DNA of 64,000 nt from Bacteroidia bacterium. GTDB taxonomy: Bacteria; Bacteroidota; Bacteroidia; SpSt-205. Numbering within the stretch: the first letter of the stretch is position 1; every line of letters begins with the position of its first letter. The translations under genes and the position numbers were made by a program. The notes below the pieces were generated by a model that was not told the origin of the DNA, did no database searches, and saw nothing but the letters and a program-made list of their open reading frames with translations. The stretch covers positions 156,446-220,445 of the forward strand of contig JAOAHZ010000006.1 of assembly GCA_026414975.1 (NCBI GenBank). The letters run 5' to 3'. This document shows positions 2,795-30,559 of the stretch, one piece after another.

Positions 2795-4024
2795 AACCCA
2801 GCCTTCCTCTTTGAGGTGCTGCCATACTATCTCAGGGGTGTTGGGTTTGTGTTGGATATATTTATCTACCTTTTCGGCGATGATTTGAAGGCGTCGTCGG
2901 TCTTTGATTAGGCTTTTTATGGCATTGGAGAAGCTAACGGGATACCGACAGCTTTCTGCAACTCTAAGAGCAATGAGCTCATGGGCTTCTGAGAAGTATT
3001 CATAGTTTGGTCCAAAGAATACAGGTTTCTTGTAGATGATTGCTTCTAAGATGTTATGGATGCCCTTGCCAAACCCCCCACCCACCCATACGGCGTGCGC
3101 ATAGAAATACACATAAGCTAAGAGCCCTGTGGTGTCCAGTATGAGGGTGTCTTTATTGCCGTTCCATTCTGGGTGGGAGTACTGTGCGCAGCGTACAGGC
3201 CATATTCTATGGATGAGTTCTACCTGCTTAGGGGACACGTCATGAGGGACGAGTATCCAGTGGACACTATAACCACGAAGTTGTTCATACGCTTGAGCTA
3301 AAAATCGGACATCGTCTTCCCAAACGCTACCAGCGACGATACAAAAGTGGCCGTTTATCCACTCGTAGAGGCCGGATATGGGTAGCCAGTTCTCCGCAAG
3401 CTGACGGACTCGGACTAGCCGACTGTCCCCTGCCACCGTAACCTTAGAAAATCCCACTTGCCGCAGTCGTTGGGCATCTTTCTCAGTTTGAACGAATATC
3501 CATTTCAAGTAAGGGAAGAACCGAATTTTCCACCACCATCGCAGGCCTTTGACTGGCTCTACGTGAGCTGACAAGAGATAAGAGGGACACTTTGCAGCGT
3601 GTAGTTCATGGAGGAGGTTGGGCCATAAGTCATACTTGACGAAAAAAACCGCTGCAGGTTGGAGGGTTTTGACCCATTTGCGTACGACCCAGGGCAAATC
3701 AATCGGAGCCGGACCGACCCAGTCTCCTATTGGATAACTCTGCTGGTAGCGCTGCCACCCCGATGAGGAGAAGAAGGAAATCACTACATAGGGACGATAG
3801 GGAAGTCGCTGAATGATATATTCTAAAACGGGGCGTCCTTGCTCAAACTCCCCTACAGAGGCACAGTGCATCCAAAGAACAGGGCGTTCTTTAGGGGGGA
3901 GGGGTGGGGCTACTTTTCGGGCTCGCCACCAGCGCCGTATTTTTTCATTTCTCAGAGCCAAGATAGGGATTACGAGTAGGCCCAGCATCCACAGCGCCGT
4001 GTAAATAGGCCGCCAGAAGCTCAT
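2753..4024 (-). CDS. waaA: 3-deoxy-D-manno-octulosonic acid transferase
   Basis: KDO transferase motifs: WMHCASVGEFEQGRPVLEYI, FVKYDLWPNLL, GGGFGKGIHNILEA; GT-B architecture. Confidence 0.88.
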   Translation of the reverse strand: MSFWRPIYTALWMLGLLVIPILALRNEKIRRWWRARKVAPPLPPKERPVLWMHCASVGEFEQGRPVLEYIIQRLPYRPYVVISFFSSSGWQRYQQSYPIGDWVGPAPIDLPWVVRKWVKTLQPAAVFFVKYDLWPNLLHELHAAKCPSYLLSAHVEPVKGLRWWWKIRFFPYLKWIFVQTEKDAQRLRQVGFSKVTVAGDSRLVRVRQLAENWLPISGLYEWINGHFCIVAGSVWEDDVRFLAQAYEQLRGYSVHWILVPHDVSPKQVELIHRIWPVRCAQYSHPEWNGNKDTLILDTTGLLAYVYFYAHAVWVGGGFGKGIHNILEAIIYKKPVFFGPNYEYFSEAHELIALRVAESCRYPVSFSNAIKSLIKDRRRLQIIAEKVDKYIQHKPNTPEIVWQHLKEEGWVSPVTDQAAQEDVG

Positions 4025-4773
4025 TCGGCCGGAGCTTTTTCATAAAGAGGAAGGCTCCAGCCTACTCGGACCCCCCCCCAAAAGTCTCGCCGACGGGCTC
4101 TGTCGCGCATTCCTCGGTCGTATAGATAACCTCGCAGGCTCCGTGTGAAGTACTGCCCGGCCTCTATGCCGAGCAGAAAGTTGATAAGGCCGTTATTACT
4201 GAAGAAACGATAGCCGAAGCTTTGAGTCAATCCCCATCCGCCCGTTAAGCGATCTAATCCCTTGAGATATTCACCTTCCAAAAGGGGTAGCCGTTCGCTA
4301 CGAGCCTTGTCTATTAGGATTCGATGGGATAGGTACCCTACACCTATCTCTATATAGGGACCACAGTTGGGGTTTTGTTTGGGCAAGCGCCAAGCCGAGA
4401 GGATATAACCTACGCGGATACTGGCTGTCCAACCCCGCTGGCGCAAAGCAGGCGTGAAAATTTTTCCGTTTTCATCTATGAAAGCCATGAGACCCACCCG
4501 CTGAAAGCTGGACAGATAAAGCCCTTCTAAAAAGGCGGGTTCTACGATTTTATCTCCGATGAGTCCAGCTCCTTGTAAAGCGAAATAGGCCCCCCTTCGC
4601 AGCTTGTAAGCTATTTCTCCACCCACAGCGCTACTATACCCGAAGCGGCGAGCTAAGTCCATTTGAGGGAATAAGCCCTGATAGGTCACCGAAGGCCAAA
4701 AAAAGTGTATGGCTGAGTCACGAATGCTTTGCTGAGCCCAGGTGAGAGTCATGCATAGTCCCAGCCAGCGCAT
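4021..4773 (-). CDS. hypothetical protein, probably exported
   Basis: 250-aa ORF overlapping the waaA start (ATGA-type coupling). Confidence 0.6.
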   Translation of the reverse strand: MRWLGLCMTLTWAQQSIRDSAIHFFWPSVTYQGLFPQMDLARRFGYSSAVGGEIAYKLRRGAYFALQGAGLIGDKIVEPAFLEGLYLSSFQRVGLMAFIDENGKIFTPALRQRGWTASIRVGYILSAWRLPKQNPNCGPYIEIGVGYLSHRILIDKARSERLPLLEGEYLKGLDRLTGGWGLTQSFGYRFFSNNGLINFLLGIEAGQYFTRSLRGYLYDRGMRDRARRRDFWGGVRVGWSLPLYEKAPAE

Positions 4774-4782
4774 TTAATCCTC

Positions 4783-4801
4783 TACCTTTGCCACAAAGGT
4801 A
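4783..4801. promoter_or_regulatory. overlapping divergent -7 boxes TACCTTTG-CCA-CAAAGGTA
   Basis: perfect inverted pair of TAnnTTTG motifs between two divergent genes. Confidence 0.7.
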
Positions 4802-4807
4802 ATAGGT

Positions 4808-6178
4808 ATGCGCATCGCCGTTATCGGAGTCGGTTATGTCGGGCTCGTAACAGCCGCCGGCCTTGCTGAAACAGGAAACACCGTGATAGGTTATGACATA
4901 GACCCGACTAAAATAGAAAAGCTTCAGAGAGGCGAATCTCCTATTTATGAACCCGGGCTAGATCACCTCTTAGCCCGCAATCTAAAAGAAGGGCGCTTGA
5001 GTTTTACTGGAGTCTTGGAGGAAGCTATCTTGCCCGCTGAGCTTATTTTCTTAGCCCTGCCTACGCCCCCTATGACAGGAGGAGAGGCTGATCTCTCTTT
5101 TATTTTTTCAGCTGCTGATTCTATCGTGCGCGTTTTATCTAAGGCCTATCTCAATGGCATTTCGGATTCTAAGATAGTTATCACGAAAAGCACAGTTCCA
5201 GTAGGTACGGCGCGGCGATTGCAGCACTTTTTTGCTGAGCGCCTTCCTCATCGCATGCGGGTCGCTTCTAATCCCGAGTTTTTACGCGAAGGCTACGCCG
5301 TAGAGGACTTTCTCAAACCGGACCGCGTCGTTATCGGTTCTCCTGACCCTGAAGTCGGGGAAAAGCTATACCAACTATACCTCCCCTATACTCGTCAAGG
5401 AAACCCCATTTATATTATGGACTGGGAGAGCGCTGAACTGACTAAGTATGCAGCGAATGCCTTTTTAGCGATGCGTATCAGTTTCATGAATGAATTGGCT
5501 CGGTTATGTGAACGGGTCGGGGCTGACATAGACAAAGTGAGATTAGGCATGGGAGCAGATAGCCGAATAGGACGAAGGTACCTGTATGCTGGAATCGGCT
5601 ACGGTGGGTCATGCTTTCCTAAGGATACCCATGCGCTTGCAGCTACCGCTCGTCAGCATGGGCTTAGCCTTCACTTAGTGGAAGCCACGATCGAGGTTAA
5701 TGTGCATCAGCGGAAACTTTTTTGGGAGAAGGTGCGGGACTACTACCATGGGCAGCTTCAAGGGCGCACCTTCGCTGTATGGGGTGTGGCTTTTAAGCCT
5801 GATACCGACGATATCCGAGAAGCGCCAGCGATAGATGTCATTCGGTGGTTACTGGAAGCAGGGGCAAAGGTCAGAGCGTTTGACCCCGTAGCGCTTCCTT
5901 CTCTACGGCGAGACTATCCGGACTGGCCTATCTATTACGCCCACAATCCCTACGATGCCGCTGAGGGGGCTGACGGGATTTTAGTCATCACCGAATGGGC
6001 TGAGTTTCGTCAGCCCGACTGGTCTCTGCTTAGGCAGAAACTGAGCAGACCCGCTATCATAGATGGGCGAAACCTCTACAATCCCGCTCAGCTCTACGCC
6101 TTGGGCATAGATTACATTTCTATTGGACGCCCATCGGTATATGGCTACTCCGAGAAGGTGGAGTCGAAGCAGAAGTAA
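4808..6178 (+). CDS. ugd: UDP-glucose 6-dehydrogenase
   Basis: MRIAVIGVGYVGLVTAAGLAETGNTVIGYDID; GYGGSCFPKDTHAL catalytic Cys motif. Confidence 0.93.
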   Translation: MRIAVIGVGYVGLVTAAGLAETGNTVIGYDIDPTKIEKLQRGESPIYEPGLDHLLARNLKEGRLSFTGVLEEAILPAELIFLALPTPPMTGGEADLSFIFSAADSIVRVLSKAYLNGISDSKIVITKSTVPVGTARRLQHFFAERLPHRMRVASNPEFLREGYAVEDFLKPDRVVIGSPDPEVGEKLYQLYLPYTRQGNPIYIMDWESAELTKYAANAFLAMRISFMNELARLCERVGADIDKVRLGMGADSRIGRRYLYAGIGYGGSCFPKDTHALAATARQHGLSLHLVEATIEVNVHQRKLFWEKVRDYYHGQLQGRTFAVWGVAFKPDTDDIREAPAIDVIRWLLEAGAKVRAFDPVALPSLRRDYPDWPIYYAHNPYDAAEGADGILVITEWAEFRQPDWSLLRQKLSRPAIIDGRNLYNPAQLYALGIDYISIGRPSVYGYSEKVESKQK

Positions 6179-12633: not shown

Positions 12634-12669
12634 GCCCCAAAGGTAAGGAGATTCGGCTACCTTTGAAGG

Positions 12670-13152
12670 ATGGAACTGCGGGAGGCTCACCTGCCCGGGG
12701 TAGGACGCAAATATACGCTCACCCTCAAGCAGGGGGGAAAGATCGTTCTCATCCTACACAATACAGGGCAGCGCGAACTTTTCTGGATAGAGCCCAAAGA
12801 AGATGACCCAACTTTATGCATTAAGCTCACCGAAGAAGAAGCCCGAGAGATGGCTTTTATTTTGGGGGGCGTACGCTATCAGCCTCTTCCTGCCGATAAA
12901 GTCAACTTTCTCCTTCAGGAAGTCCTCATGGAGTGGCTTCCCGTAGAGCCGGGCTGTGCGATGGCGGGACGCACTTTGGCTGAGTTAGAGCTGCGTCGTC
13001 GTACGGGCGTCTCTATCATCGCCATCCTGCGACAAGGCCGAACTATACCCAGCCCTGACCCATACAACGAACGAATCATAGCCGGAGACACCCTGGTAGC
13101 TGTAGGGACCCGTAGCCAGATAGAGCAAGTTCTACCCTTATGTAAAAAGTAG
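12670..13152 (+). CDS. TrkA-C domain regulatory subunit of a cation:proton antiporter (KhtT-like)
   Basis: GRTLAELELRRRTGVSIIAILRQGRTIPSPDPYNERIIAGDTLVAVGTRSQIEQV; directly upstream of the antiporter. Confidence 0.85.
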   Translation: MELREAHLPGVGRKYTLTLKQGGKIVLILHNTGQRELFWIEPKEDDPTLCIKLTEEEAREMAFILGGVRYQPLPADKVNFLLQEVLMEWLPVEPGCAMAGRTLAELELRRRTGVSIIAILRQGRTIPSPDPYNERIIAGDTLVAVGTRSQIEQVLPLCKK

Positions 13153-14328
13153 ATGGAAACGATACCTATCCACGAGCTGGGCGCGATTGGACTGCTTTTC
13201 ATTGTATTCTTTTGGCTGGCTTGGGGTCTGCAGCGATGGAAGGTTCCTGCGCTCTTAGGCTTTATGCTTGCTGGCTTTCTAATGCAGAGCTATACGCCTC
13301 GACTCATAGAGCCGGCTCTACCCCTTATTGGCGAGGTAGCTGTGTGGCTTCTCTTTTTTTTCGTGGGGTTAGAGTATTCACCTGAGCATTTAGCGCGCCT
13401 GAGCCGGAATATCGCTCGGCCAGGCCTGATAGACTTTGGGGTCAGCTTTGGTGTCGTTACGGCTATAGCGCTTTTTTTCTCCCCTCCTATTGAGGCGCTT
13501 CTATTGGGCAGTGCGCTGTATCCAAGCAGCACGGTGGTAGTGGCCCGGCTTCTTTTGGATTATGGCCGACTGGCCAGCCCTGAAGCGGAGCTGCTTCTGG
13601 GGCTCTTGATATTTGAGGACCTGGTCGGGGTGGCTCTATTAGGCTTTCTCACCCCTCTGACCCAAGGTAACGACCTGAGCCTCCTGCTCTTAGTTCAAAT
13701 CTTGGGGGCTCTGGCAGGGGTAATAGGGACTTTTTGGTTTTTGTATCGGTGGCTTCTGCCTTGGCTTTGGCCTCGACTTCCCGCCTTAGGGGATGAGCCT
13801 CTGAGTGTATTCCTCATGCTTGGACTGACCTTAGCAGTAGGAGCGGGCGGGCATGAACTGGGATTGTCTGGGGCCCTGACCACCTTTCTCTTGGGGGTGC
13901 TCCTACCAGAAGGTAGCGCCCTTTACCACGCTGCAGAAAAATCGCTCGCCCCGCTTCGTGAACTCAGCGTGGGACTATTCTTTTTCGCCCTCTGCTATTT
14001 TGTAGAAGTTAAGAGTCTGCCTTTGGCTGGAGGAGTAGGATGGCTCCTTTTAGCCTTGGGTCTCAAAGGCGCCTCTACCTTCTGGGCGGCCCGCTTATGG
14101 GGCCTCCAGCCGAAGACCGCCCTTCGCGCTGCTCTTAGCTTTCTCCCCAAGGGAGAATTTTCTCTGCTATTTGGTAAGCTCATGACTTACTGGAACTCTC
14201 TGGTCGTCCTGCTCGTCTTAGGTACTTCGATCTTAGGCACTTTAGCTTTTGCGACCTCAGAACGCATCGTCGGATTTTTCTTCCCGAGACGCCCCTTCAA
14301 ACAGGCTAGGGTCTTTCAGTCCCCTTAG
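13153..14328 (+). CDS. CPA2-type cation:proton antiporter membrane subunit
   Basis: polytopic; LLFFFVGLEYSPEHLARLSRN, SSTVVVARLLLDYGRLASPEAELLLGLLIFEDL. Confidence 0.88.
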   Translation: METIPIHELGAIGLLFIVFFWLAWGLQRWKVPALLGFMLAGFLMQSYTPRLIEPALPLIGEVAVWLLFFFVGLEYSPEHLARLSRNIARPGLIDFGVSFGVVTAIALFFSPPIEALLLGSALYPSSTVVVARLLLDYGRLASPEAELLLGLLIFEDLVGVALLGFLTPLTQGNDLSLLLLVQILGALAGVIGTFWFLYRWLLPWLWPRLPALGDEPLSVFLMLGLTLAVGAGGHELGLSGALTTFLLGVLLPEGSALYHAAEKSLAPLRELSVGLFFFALCYFVEVKSLPLAGGVGWLLLALGLKGASTFWAARLWGLQPKTALRAALSFLPKGEFSLLFGKLMTYWNSLVVLLVLGTSILGTLAFATSERIVGFFFPRRPFKQARVFQSP

Positions 14329-14405: not shown

Positions 14406-15608
14406 CTATGAGTCGGGTGAGCCTTTGCTGTGGGTGTTTCCTCTCATTTGGTATGCATACCAGCCGGCTATGACGCCTGCTGTACCTCCCGCTGCCCCTA
14501 GTCCAGCCAAGTAAATCCATAAGTTGCTCCCTGCGGTGCTATATAGTAATACAGCCACCCCGAGCGCCCCCAGATATGCCCCACTGAAATAGGCAATATA
14601 GCCTTTGGATGAAAGGATATTGGGAAGGGCTAAGGCCTCGGTGCTCCACAGGTATCCATTCAGTATGGCCACCCAATAGTAAGGACGCGCAGCTAAGTAT
14701 GCTCGCCCTGGAAAGGTCTCCCAAAACATCCCTGCTGCAGCTAATAGAAGGGCCCCCGATAAGCCCAAGCCATGAAGGAGCGGCCATAGACTCCGATAGA
14801 TTTGCCAAGGGGAGGCCCTGCGCTGCGTCCAAATAGGATAGAAATACAGGATGATTTGAGCGAGTACGCTACGCAAGCTAAGGGGAAGGAGAGTAGCCCA
14901 GCGCCAGTGAGCAATAAGTATTTCTGAGCCCCCTCTCCAGCCTAAAAACCACACGGGTAAAACAAACACGCCTTCCATAGCTACATTGCCCCAAAGGGCT
15001 ATCCAGCCGAATCGTCCAAAACCAGGGAAGGCCTTAGAGGGAGCTTGCCAAGCGCGCCAGAGAAGCCCCCCAACAGGAGCAATCCCCCACAAAGGTTGAA
15101 GGGCCCGCGATAGAGCTGCGCCTCTAAGTCCGTACAATCCACCTAAAGTTCCCGTCAGAAGTAACCCCAATAAACTACTGGAGAGCTGCCAAAGGAGGAT
15201 CGTCTTGTCGTCTAAGCGTCCTCGCAAGTGAGATCGGATTGTTTCTCCTATCAAGGTGGCACCTAAGGCAGGAAGGTAGGCCCATGTTACCCATCGGACT
15301 TCCTCGGGTACGGTCCAGCCCAGAGAGAAAAGAACGATTAGCCCCCCTCCCATCCAGGGGAGGAGCTTCTGAATGGCTCGGCGCAGAACGGAGTGAGCTT
15401 GGTGGGGGTGAAGGGCACTATATCGCAGCGTAGCAGCGGGGATGCCCCCATGAGTGAAGCTAAGAACGCCTACATAAAAAGAGGTAGCCCAACTCCATCG
15501 CCCAAAGTCTTCTACGGATAGTAAGGCGGTCAAGAGAAAGGTCTCAGCGAAAGGATAGATGCGCTGGAGTAGATTGCCAGAGAGGTAAAAGAAGGCCTGA
15601 AGCCGCAC
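14406..15608 (-). CDS. polysaccharide/oligosaccharide flippase-like membrane protein
   Basis: about 12 hydrophobic segments; LLQRIYPFAETFLLTALLSVEDFGRWSWATSF N-terminus typical of the MATE/Wzx superfamily. Confidence 0.75.
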   Translation of the reverse strand: MRLQAFFYLSGNLLQRIYPFAETFLLTALLSVEDFGRWSWATSFYVGVLSFTHGGIPAATLRYSALHPHQAHSVLRRAIQKLLPWMGGGLIVLFSLGWTVPEEVRWVTWAYLPALGATLIGETIRSHLRGRLDDKTILLWQLSSSLLGLLLTGTLGGLYGLRGAALSRALQPLWGIAPVGGLLWRAWQAPSKAFPGFGRFGWIALWGNVAMEGVFVLPVWFLGWRGGSEILIAHWRWATLLPLSLRSVLAQIILYFYPIWTQRRASPWQIYRSLWPLLHGLGLSGALLLAAAGMFWETFPGRAYLAARPYYWVAILNGYLWSTEALALPNILSSKGYIAYFSGAYLGALGVAVLLYSTAGSNLWIYLAGLGAAGGTAGVIAGWYAYQMRGNTHSKGSPDS

Positions 15609-15639
15609 CCCTCAAAGGTCGCGTAAATACCTTTGTAGA

Positions 15640-16491
15640 GTGGAGTATCTGATTATATCGCCGAGGTGGCGCAGCTATCAGCTTATTGACTTTGGGGAAG
15701 GGTGGCGATGGGAGCGCTGGGGGGAAATTAGTGTAGCCCGCCCCGATGGATGGGCCGTAGGTCGCCCCCAACAGAGGCGGGAGTCATGGAAGGTCCAGCA
15801 TGTCTATCATCCCCTGACGCCTTATCAGGGACGATGGGAGCCCTCCTTGCCAGAGAAGTGGATCCTCCCCTATCATGGGGAAGGATGGTACATGGAGCTA
15901 TGGTGCCGAAGTGGTAAGTTCAAGCATCTGGGTCTTTTCCCAGAGCAGGCCGCTCATTGGGAATGGCTTTACAACTGGCTTCATCAACGACCGGGGTCGC
16001 GCCTACTCAATCTTTTTGCGTACACGGGTGGAGCTTCTATTGCTGCTGCCCAAGCGGGTGCCTTCGTCACTCACGTAGATGCCAGTCGGAGCGCCATCAC
16101 CTGGGCAGCTGAAAATGCGGCCTTGAATAAGCTGTCTAACATTCGTTGGCTCCTTGAGGATGCGCGTAAGGTCGTTCAACGCGCTCAGCGGCGAGGAGAG
16201 AAGTATGAGGCTATTCTCTTGGACCCACCCGCATATGGCATCGGAACTGGCGGAAAACGCTGGGAACTTCAGCGCGACCTTATACCACTTTTGGAAGGAG
16301 TTCTGTCGCTCCTTCCGGAAGAAAGCGGCCTTTTTCTCCTCAACCTCTATCGAGGTGATTTTTCGCCTTACACCCTCCTAAGGACCCTCAGAGAGATACG
16401 GCCTCTGCCCTTAGAAGTAGGCGAGCTCACGCTCAAAACCTCTACAGGAAGACGGTTGAGTACAGGTATATTCCTACGGGCTGCATGGTAA
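15640..16491 (+). CDS. class I SAM-dependent methyltransferase (RlmI-like)
   Basis: GSRLLNLFAYTGGASIAAAQAGAFVTHVDAS, ILLDPPAYG. Confidence 0.85.
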   Translation: MEYLIISPRWRSYQLIDFGEGWRWERWGEISVARPDGWAVGRPQQRRESWKVQHVYHPLTPYQGRWEPSLPEKWILPYHGEGWYMELWCRSGKFKHLGLFPEQAAHWEWLYNWLHQRPGSRLLNLFAYTGGASIAAAQAGAFVTHVDASRSAITWAAENAALNKLSNIRWLLEDARKVVQRAQRRGEKYEAILLDPPAYGIGTGGKRWELQRDLIPLLEGVLSLLPEESGLFLLNLYRGDFSPYTLLRTLREIRPLPLEVGELTLKTSTGRRLSTGIFLRAAW

Positions 16492-29411: not shown

Positions 29412-29672
29412 TCAGTTTTTCAAGATAGCATAAATAAGTGTAAGAAAGCCGCTCAAAATAAACCATGGTGCGATGTACAGAGAAAAAGAGAATTCCTTGC
29501 TATCCACGAATTCACTCGGTATGAGAAGTCCGACATATCCAACCACGAGTAAGACGATCCCCACAATAAGCCATGTGTAATTGGCTCGTGAGAAAGGCAT
29601 GGAGCCCGTTTTATTCGTCGAGTCTTCGATAGATTTGGGAGGGACTTTGGTGAGTTTTTTTTCTGCGCTCAT
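29412..29672 (-). CDS. DUF3098-type membrane protein
   Basis: 86 aa, two TM segments, located between ftsX and uppP as in other Bacteroidota. Confidence 0.75.
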   Translation of the reverse strand: MSAEKKLTKVPPKSIEDSTNKTGSMPFSRANYTWLIVGIVLLVVGYVGLLIPSEFVDSKEFSFSLYIAPWFILSGFLTLIYAILKN

Positions 29673-30520
29673 ATGAGTTTTTCTAAGGTTTGATTGAGGA
29701 AGCGATTCAGTGCAAGGCGACTGGCTAAATAGCCCATGAGGGTGCCAAAGGCTGCAAGTCCAGCGTAGAGCCCCATGAGTCGCCAGTCTGTAAGCAAGAA
29801 GCTGATTGAGAGTAGAAGGCGATCCACTAAGAGTAAACCTGCATGGAGAACGAGAATAGCTAAGATTGAACCGATAAAACCCTGGAAAAGCCCTACAAGA
29901 AGAAAAGGGCGCTCAATAAACTGGCGTGTAGCACCAACCAGCTCCATGGTTCGGATTTCTAATCGTCGGCTGAATATAGCTAACCTTACCGTGTTGAAGA
30001 TGAGCAAAAATGCTATAATCACCATCAATCCTCCGACGAAAAGTCCTACCCAGCGAAAAGTATTAGCTCGCTTTTCTAATACTTCTAATAAACGGCGTGG
30101 GTAGTCAATCTCTTTGACCTCGTCCCATTCTAATACTCGCTGAGAAAATACTAAAATACTGTCCGACGAAACGAGCTCTCCATGAAAGAGTACCTTGAAA
30201 GTAGGGGGGAAAGGATTAAAACCCTCCATGGCCCGAACAAACTCTTCGCCGGCTATCTGCTGAAAGTTTTCCATAGCTGACTCCGGCGACACGTACTGAG
30301 CTTCCCGTACTAAGCGTTGGGTTTGCAGCCACCTAAGTATTTCGTTTATGCGTTCGTTGGGAACGAGTCCGTAGAGGTGAATGCGGTATTCTAAGCCACC
30401 CCGAGCCTGCTCTAATACAAGCTGTCCCGCCAATAAAAACAGTCCATAAAGCCCTAACACGAATAAAGACAGGGTGAGACTAAAGAGGGAGTGGGTTAGC
30501 GGCAAGTGCGCCCCCTTCAC
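29669..30520 (-). CDS. ftsX: cell division permease FtsX
   Basis: FtsX-type topology; LVREAQYVSPESAMENFQQIAGEEF; LEIRTMELVGATRQFIERPFLLVGLFQGFIGS; start reassigned to GTG 4 nt after TACTTTTG. Confidence 0.88.
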   Translation of the reverse strand: MKGAHLPLTHSLFSLTLSLFVLGLYGLFLLAGQLVLEQARGGLEYRIHLYGLVPNERINEILRWLQTQRLVREAQYVSPESAMENFQQIAGEEFVRAMEGFNPFPPTFKVLFHGELVSSDSILVFSQRVLEWDEVKEIDYPRRLLEVLEKRANTFRWVGLFVGGLMVIIAFLLIFNTVRLAIFSRRLEIRTMELVGATRQFIERPFLLVGLFQGFIGSILAILVLHAGLLLVDRLLLSISFLLTDWRLMGLYAGLAAFGTLMGYLASRLALNRFLNQTLEKLI

Positions 30521-30559
30521 CCCACAAAAGTACATCCAAAAACCTATACCTTTGTTTTG

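Follow-up and report, generated by a model that had tools for sequence, protein, structure and literature searches.

Divergent genes at three sites of the window (the whole 64,000-nucleotide stretch of DNA analysed here) have their start codons so close together that two opposed promoters must share a few tens of base pairs. This layout raises the question of whether the promoters of each pair form a selected switch or act independently in the smallest space that can hold them both. The second answer is very probably correct: the three sites appear to be independent leaderless promoters packed to a geometric floor, with occlusion between them a likely by-product rather than a selected property. 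The genome that carries the window is 2.2 Mb long and 97% complete; records list its relatives as Bacteroidia MAGs (isolates SKYB95, SKYG57, SKYG92 and SKYB87). Transcription start points were predicted from box position throughout.

Box pairs at three divergent sites

Divergent, leaderless-type, back-to-back box pairs had been proposed in the initial annotation for the methyltransferase, SCP2/TrkA-C and ftsX/PurE-like sites. At the level of sequence such pairs were present at all three, and none of the six boxes was more than 1 bp away from the position it gave (Table 1). Five of the six match TAnnTTTG, the −7 element of Bacteroidota, and read TACCTTTG or TACTTTTG; the sixth, GACCTTTG, is one base off and is missed by exact-pattern scans. 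Five boxes end 4 nt before the start codon, and the remaining one ends 5 nt before it. Start codons were separated by 31 bp in the methyltransferase pair, 36 bp in SCP2/TrkA-C and 39 bp in ftsX/PurE-like. A mechanical call had placed the ftsX start at ATG 30535; it was rejected because a GTG or ATG codon at 30520 was kept together with the box in 9/9 genomes compared.

Table 1. Genes and putative −7 boxes at the three back-to-back sites and the face-to-face site.
Feature	Coordinates	Strand	Match or position
250 aa protein	4021..4773	−	no family match; conserved next to the 4808 gene in relatives compared
Face-to-face plus box TACCTTTG	4783..4790	+	17 nt before ATG 4808
Face-to-face minus box TACCTTTG	4794..4801	−	20 nt before ATG 4773
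UDP-glucose/GDP-mannose dehydrogenase family protein	4808..6178	+	PF03721, PF00984, PF03720
SCP2 sterol-transfer-domain protein, 98 aa	12337..12633	−	PF02036
−7 box TACCTTTG of SCP2 gene	12638..12645	−	4 nt before ATG 12633
−7 box TACCTTTG of TrkA-C gene	12658..12665	+	4 nt before ATG 12670
TrkA-C domain protein, 160 aa	12670..13152	+	PF02080
Na/H exchanger-family gene, directly after TrkA-C gene	13153-14328		PF00999
Divergent neighbour, 400 aa	14406..15608	−	first named flippase, unverified
−7 box GACCTTTG of 14406-15608 gene	15613..15620	−	4 nt before GTG 15608
−7 box TACCTTTG of methyltransferase gene	15628..15635	+	4 nt before GTG 15640
SAM-dependent RNA methyltransferase-like protein, 283 aa	15640..16491	+	PF10672
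FtsX-like protein	29669..30520	−	PF02687, PF18075; start at conserved GTG 30520
−7 box TACTTTTG of ftsX	30525..30532	−	4 nt before GTG 30520
−7 box TACCTTTG of PurE-like gene	30547..30554	+	5 nt before ATG 30560
PurE (AIR carboxylase)-like protein, 152 aa	30560..31018	+	match under curated cut-off

By box orientation and gene starts the three pairs fall among back-to-back divergent promoters. Five exact boxes and the genome-wide distance peak described below assign the boxes to the −7 element of Bacteroidota sigma-A. Classical divergent promoters are back-to-back, overlapping or face-to-face; the three pairs belong to the first kind and the boxes at 4783-4801 to the last. Unlike the classical ones, the back-to-back promoters here appear leaderless and stand at the geometric minimum.

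In Flavobacterium johnsoniae, the start point follows the −7 box by 4–5 nt (PMC6847099). At the three sites transcription is therefore predicted to begin on the first base of the start codon or on one adjoining it, and the mRNAs would begin at the start codon and be translated without leaders. Zheng et al. 2011 (PMC3160421) described leaderless genes whose promoter box lies about 10–12 bp before the start codon. The boxes studied here stand at that place, with a sharply defined distance to the start codon, but they are Bacteroidota −7 boxes instead of TANNNT, and divergent packing is added.

Family matches revealed no evident functional link between the partner genes at the three sites, and the 14406-15608 product had no Pfam or NCBIfam match. 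The small TrkA-C protein and the Na/H exchanger-family gene after it (12670-14328) are reminiscent of KhtTU-type K+/H+ antiporters.

The −33 region

Each upstream −33 element was expected from the initial annotation to lie inside the coding sequence of the divergent neighbour. When 220 exact promoters were aligned on the box, the position profile contained no −33 information; apart from the box and the start codon, the informative positions were limited to the base that follows the box and a weak A/T patch 5–7 bp upstream of the box. No TTTG or TTG element about 19 bp upstream of the box emerged when counts near −33 were compared with flanks and shuffles. TTG was present near −33 in 2/37 cases in tight pairs (3.1 in shuffles), 11/79 loose divergent genes (10.1) and 20/104 co-directional genes (15.1 ± 3.5), and just 3/46 paired promoters from orthologues had it in the −33 window. 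Since there is no −33 signal, the sequence gives no ground for the statement that upstream elements have to be located within the neighbouring gene. The polymerase itself would have to cover the neighbour's first codons, and at n = 220 sites a weak or degenerate −33 contact is possible.

The −33 element is also weak in F. johnsoniae, where leaders exceed 10 nt in 87% of transcripts (PMC6847099), so the missing signal does not expel these promoters from the sigma-A family. As in promoters of Bacteroidota sigma-A (sigma-ABfr), a TTTG/TAnnTTTG −7 box precedes the predicted start point by 4–5 nt and has an A/T-rich patch just upstream of it. The differences are the absent −33 signal and a strong TA[C/T]C flavour. 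In F. psychrophilum leaderless mRNAs make up just 5.5% (PMC9723704). The studied members of the phylum are mostly leadered, in contrast to the present genome, in which boxes stand mostly at leaderless distance.

Packing and independence of back-to-back pairs

The pattern TAnnTTTG N2-8 ATG occurred 507 times in the own genome of the window versus 79 times for the reversed control. Gene-level counts were taken from a 0.86 Mb sample of this genome (655 genes) and 0.4 Mb of genome G005 (310 genes), with a simple caller of the codon-usage type; in the refinement of distances, start choice favoured boxes. The box-to-start distance showed a sharp peak at 4 nt in the first sample (44 + 42 genes) and again at 4 nt in the second (20 + 28 genes). 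Five altered control motifs gave no 4-nt peak in the sampled genes.

The genome-wide search for the paired layout suggested by the initial annotation showed it to be widespread. With TAnnTTTG boxes at spacers of 0–30 and the reversed pattern as control, the own genome contained 50 back-to-back pairs versus 0 in the control, and each of ten genus mates contained 33–72 versus 0–4. That a common motif should have met itself by coincidence, as the shortness of TAnnTTTG might suggest, can practically be dismissed: about 7 pairs were expected from uniform box density, and the boxes are conserved across ten species. A chance origin is refuted statistically. Tight packing of divergent leaderless-type promoters is a real, genome-wide habit in this Bacteroidia lineage; in most other families of the class, back-to-back pairs were not clearly above controls. 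Tandem boxes were considered as a special class and rejected, as box density roughly accounts for their number (14 versus 3 in the control, N0-30).

The style recurs in a further lineage, represented by G051, a genome of the same class and another family, with 143 back-to-back pairs versus 23 in the control and 914 leaderless-type boxes versus 351.

Start-to-start distances of two-box divergent pairs were densest at 26–40 bp, and none fell at 0–25 bp. Two abutting leaderless boxes need at least 4+8+8+4 = 24 bp, or 22 bp with a shared TA. A packing floor of about 24–26 bp between starts thus follows from the box length and the 4-nt box-to-start distance. Each pair would consist of two ordinary promoters of the Bacteroidota primary sigma factor, for each of which about 12 bp before the gene would suffice, with no −33 element, so that divergent genes in a compact genome could be packed down to this floor. 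The three sites illustrate the packing limit of divergent genes whose promoters have no −33 element and whose mRNAs are predicted to have no leaders.

Bidirectional promoters of enterobacteria share one near-symmetric −10 element, with start points usually 18 bp apart (PMC10268837). The present pairs resemble them in that opposite start points lie within tens of base pairs and polymerase may bind in either orientation. They differ in having two separate boxes that serve two protein-coding genes, with predicted starts 32–40 bp apart; no shared −10 element was found at the three sites. Only a few cases, CAAAGCTACCTTTG in G007 among them, come close to sharing: there the two boxes have a central TA in common. 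Our literature search found no paper on Bacteroidetes divergent promoters with leaderless genes, or on bidirectional promoters there.

Predicted start points 32–40 bp apart are less than one polymerase footprint from each other and too close for two RNA polymerases, so some steric interference is likely. The interference proposed in the initial annotation is probable to this extent. Its stronger form, in which the pairs are selected either-or switches and occlusion at one promoter regulates the other, is unlikely, although the ftsX and PurE genes remain adjacent in 9 genomes and those of the methyltransferase pair in 10. Divergent pairs that carried two exact boxes were as frequent as expected from independence, with 18 seen versus 18.9 expected in the own genome and 19 versus 16.7 in G005; in neither sample was the presence of the two boxes correlated, which would have pointed to selected pairing. 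The spacing between boxes also argues against a switch. Both boxes were present in 9/9 genomes with both ftsX and PurE genes, window included, at spacers of 14, 13, 14, 46, 14, 31, 27, 6 and 23. The methyltransferase pair had both in 10/10 genomes (one mismatch allowed), at spacers of 7, 7, 8, 8, −2, 3, 51, 40, 7 and 30. Over ranges of 6 to 46 and −2 to 51 the strength of occlusion must vary widely. Moreover, no functional link between the partner genes is evident, and the SCP2/TrkA-C pairing is absent from 7/10 genus mates. The four genomes with that adjacency, window included, all had a spacer of exactly 12, a uniformity that may stem from constraint or just from close kinship. TrkA-C had an exact box beside other neighbours in 6/8 genomes without the SCP2 pairing.

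The inverted symmetry of the pairs, for example CAAAGGTA-N12-TACCTTTG at SCP2/TrkA-C, would also suit an operator for a dimeric regulator in place of two promoters. This reading is very improbable, and for the back-to-back pairs it was rejected on account of the drifting spacers (−2 to 51 among orthologues). Single boxes at 4 nt distance precede many unpaired genes as well, and in orthologous boxes TA and TTTG are invariant while the middle two letters vary. In the nearest relatives the 15613-15620 box reads GACCTTTG or GAACTTTG; the others have TAnnTTTG there.

Boxes that are kept while their mutual geometry drifts fit independent promoters. Two polymerases would not fit together on such a pair, and the result would be weak mutual occlusion rather than a selected switch.

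Face-to-face boxes

At 4783-4801 the window reads TACCTTTG CCA CAAAGGTA between divergent genes that start at 4773 (minus strand) and 4808 (plus strand). In this rarer layout the two boxes point at each other, and the 5′ ends of the two transcripts are predicted to overlap. Orthologues of this locus were collected by protein search, not by pattern search. The face-to-face pair was present in 10/10 relatives with the gene, another genus included, at spacers of 2–3, with one degenerate case (G008).

A pattern search of ten genomes for face-to-face sites, which sees spacers 0–6 only, yielded 55 in all versus 1 in the control, and 43 of the 55 had spacers of 0–3; the two loci found in 10/10 genomes leave little room for bias from this limit. 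Five orthologous gene pairs accounted for 36/55 sites; the genes were named on the basis of their translations and general knowledge. They are recQ/kdsD-like (10/10 genomes, spacer 1–2; L206, L142, L143, L122, L125, L130, L139, L176, L187 and L189), UDP-sugar dehydrogenase/unknown (10/10, spacer 2–3), NuoK-like/ankyrin-repeat protein (8 genomes, spacer always 3), QueA-like/FtsX-type permease (4 genomes, always 6) and recA/FAH-family protein (4 genomes, always 1; L133, L183, L197 and L202). As in promoters, TA and TTTG were invariant and the middle two positions varied in most face-to-face pairs. The recQ/kdsD spacing was not kept in other members of the class, where starts are 73–166 bp apart.

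It is conceivable, though doubtful, that the locus at 4783-4801, together with four or more further loci conserved in the family, forms a class of symmetric either-or promoters with a shared melting region and mutually exclusive initiation. Two −7 boxes mostly 0–3 nt apart would share one melting region, and polymerase bound in one orientation would exclude the other. The complement of each box (CAAAG) would supply the purine start nucleotide of the opposing promoter: with a start 5 nt past the box and spacers of 0–3, +1 is predicted to coincide with a purine in the CAAAG opposite. If so, recQ/kdsD, UDP-sugar dehydrogenase/unknown and the other pairs would be mutually exclusive at each initiation event.

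Steric interference is plausible across both geometries. Selection for coupling is not supported at the three back-to-back sites and is possible at the face-to-face sites. The contrast between fixed face-to-face spacing and drifting back-to-back spacing deserves a test, and the two classes offer a natural set for distinguishing promoter overlap that is tolerated from overlap that is used.

In the recA/FAH pair both ATGs are 8 nt from their own boxes, with 15 bp between starts. The 15 bp intergenic region reads CATACCTTTGNCAAAGGTATG, with one copy TATCTTTG, and each start codon touches the box of the other gene.
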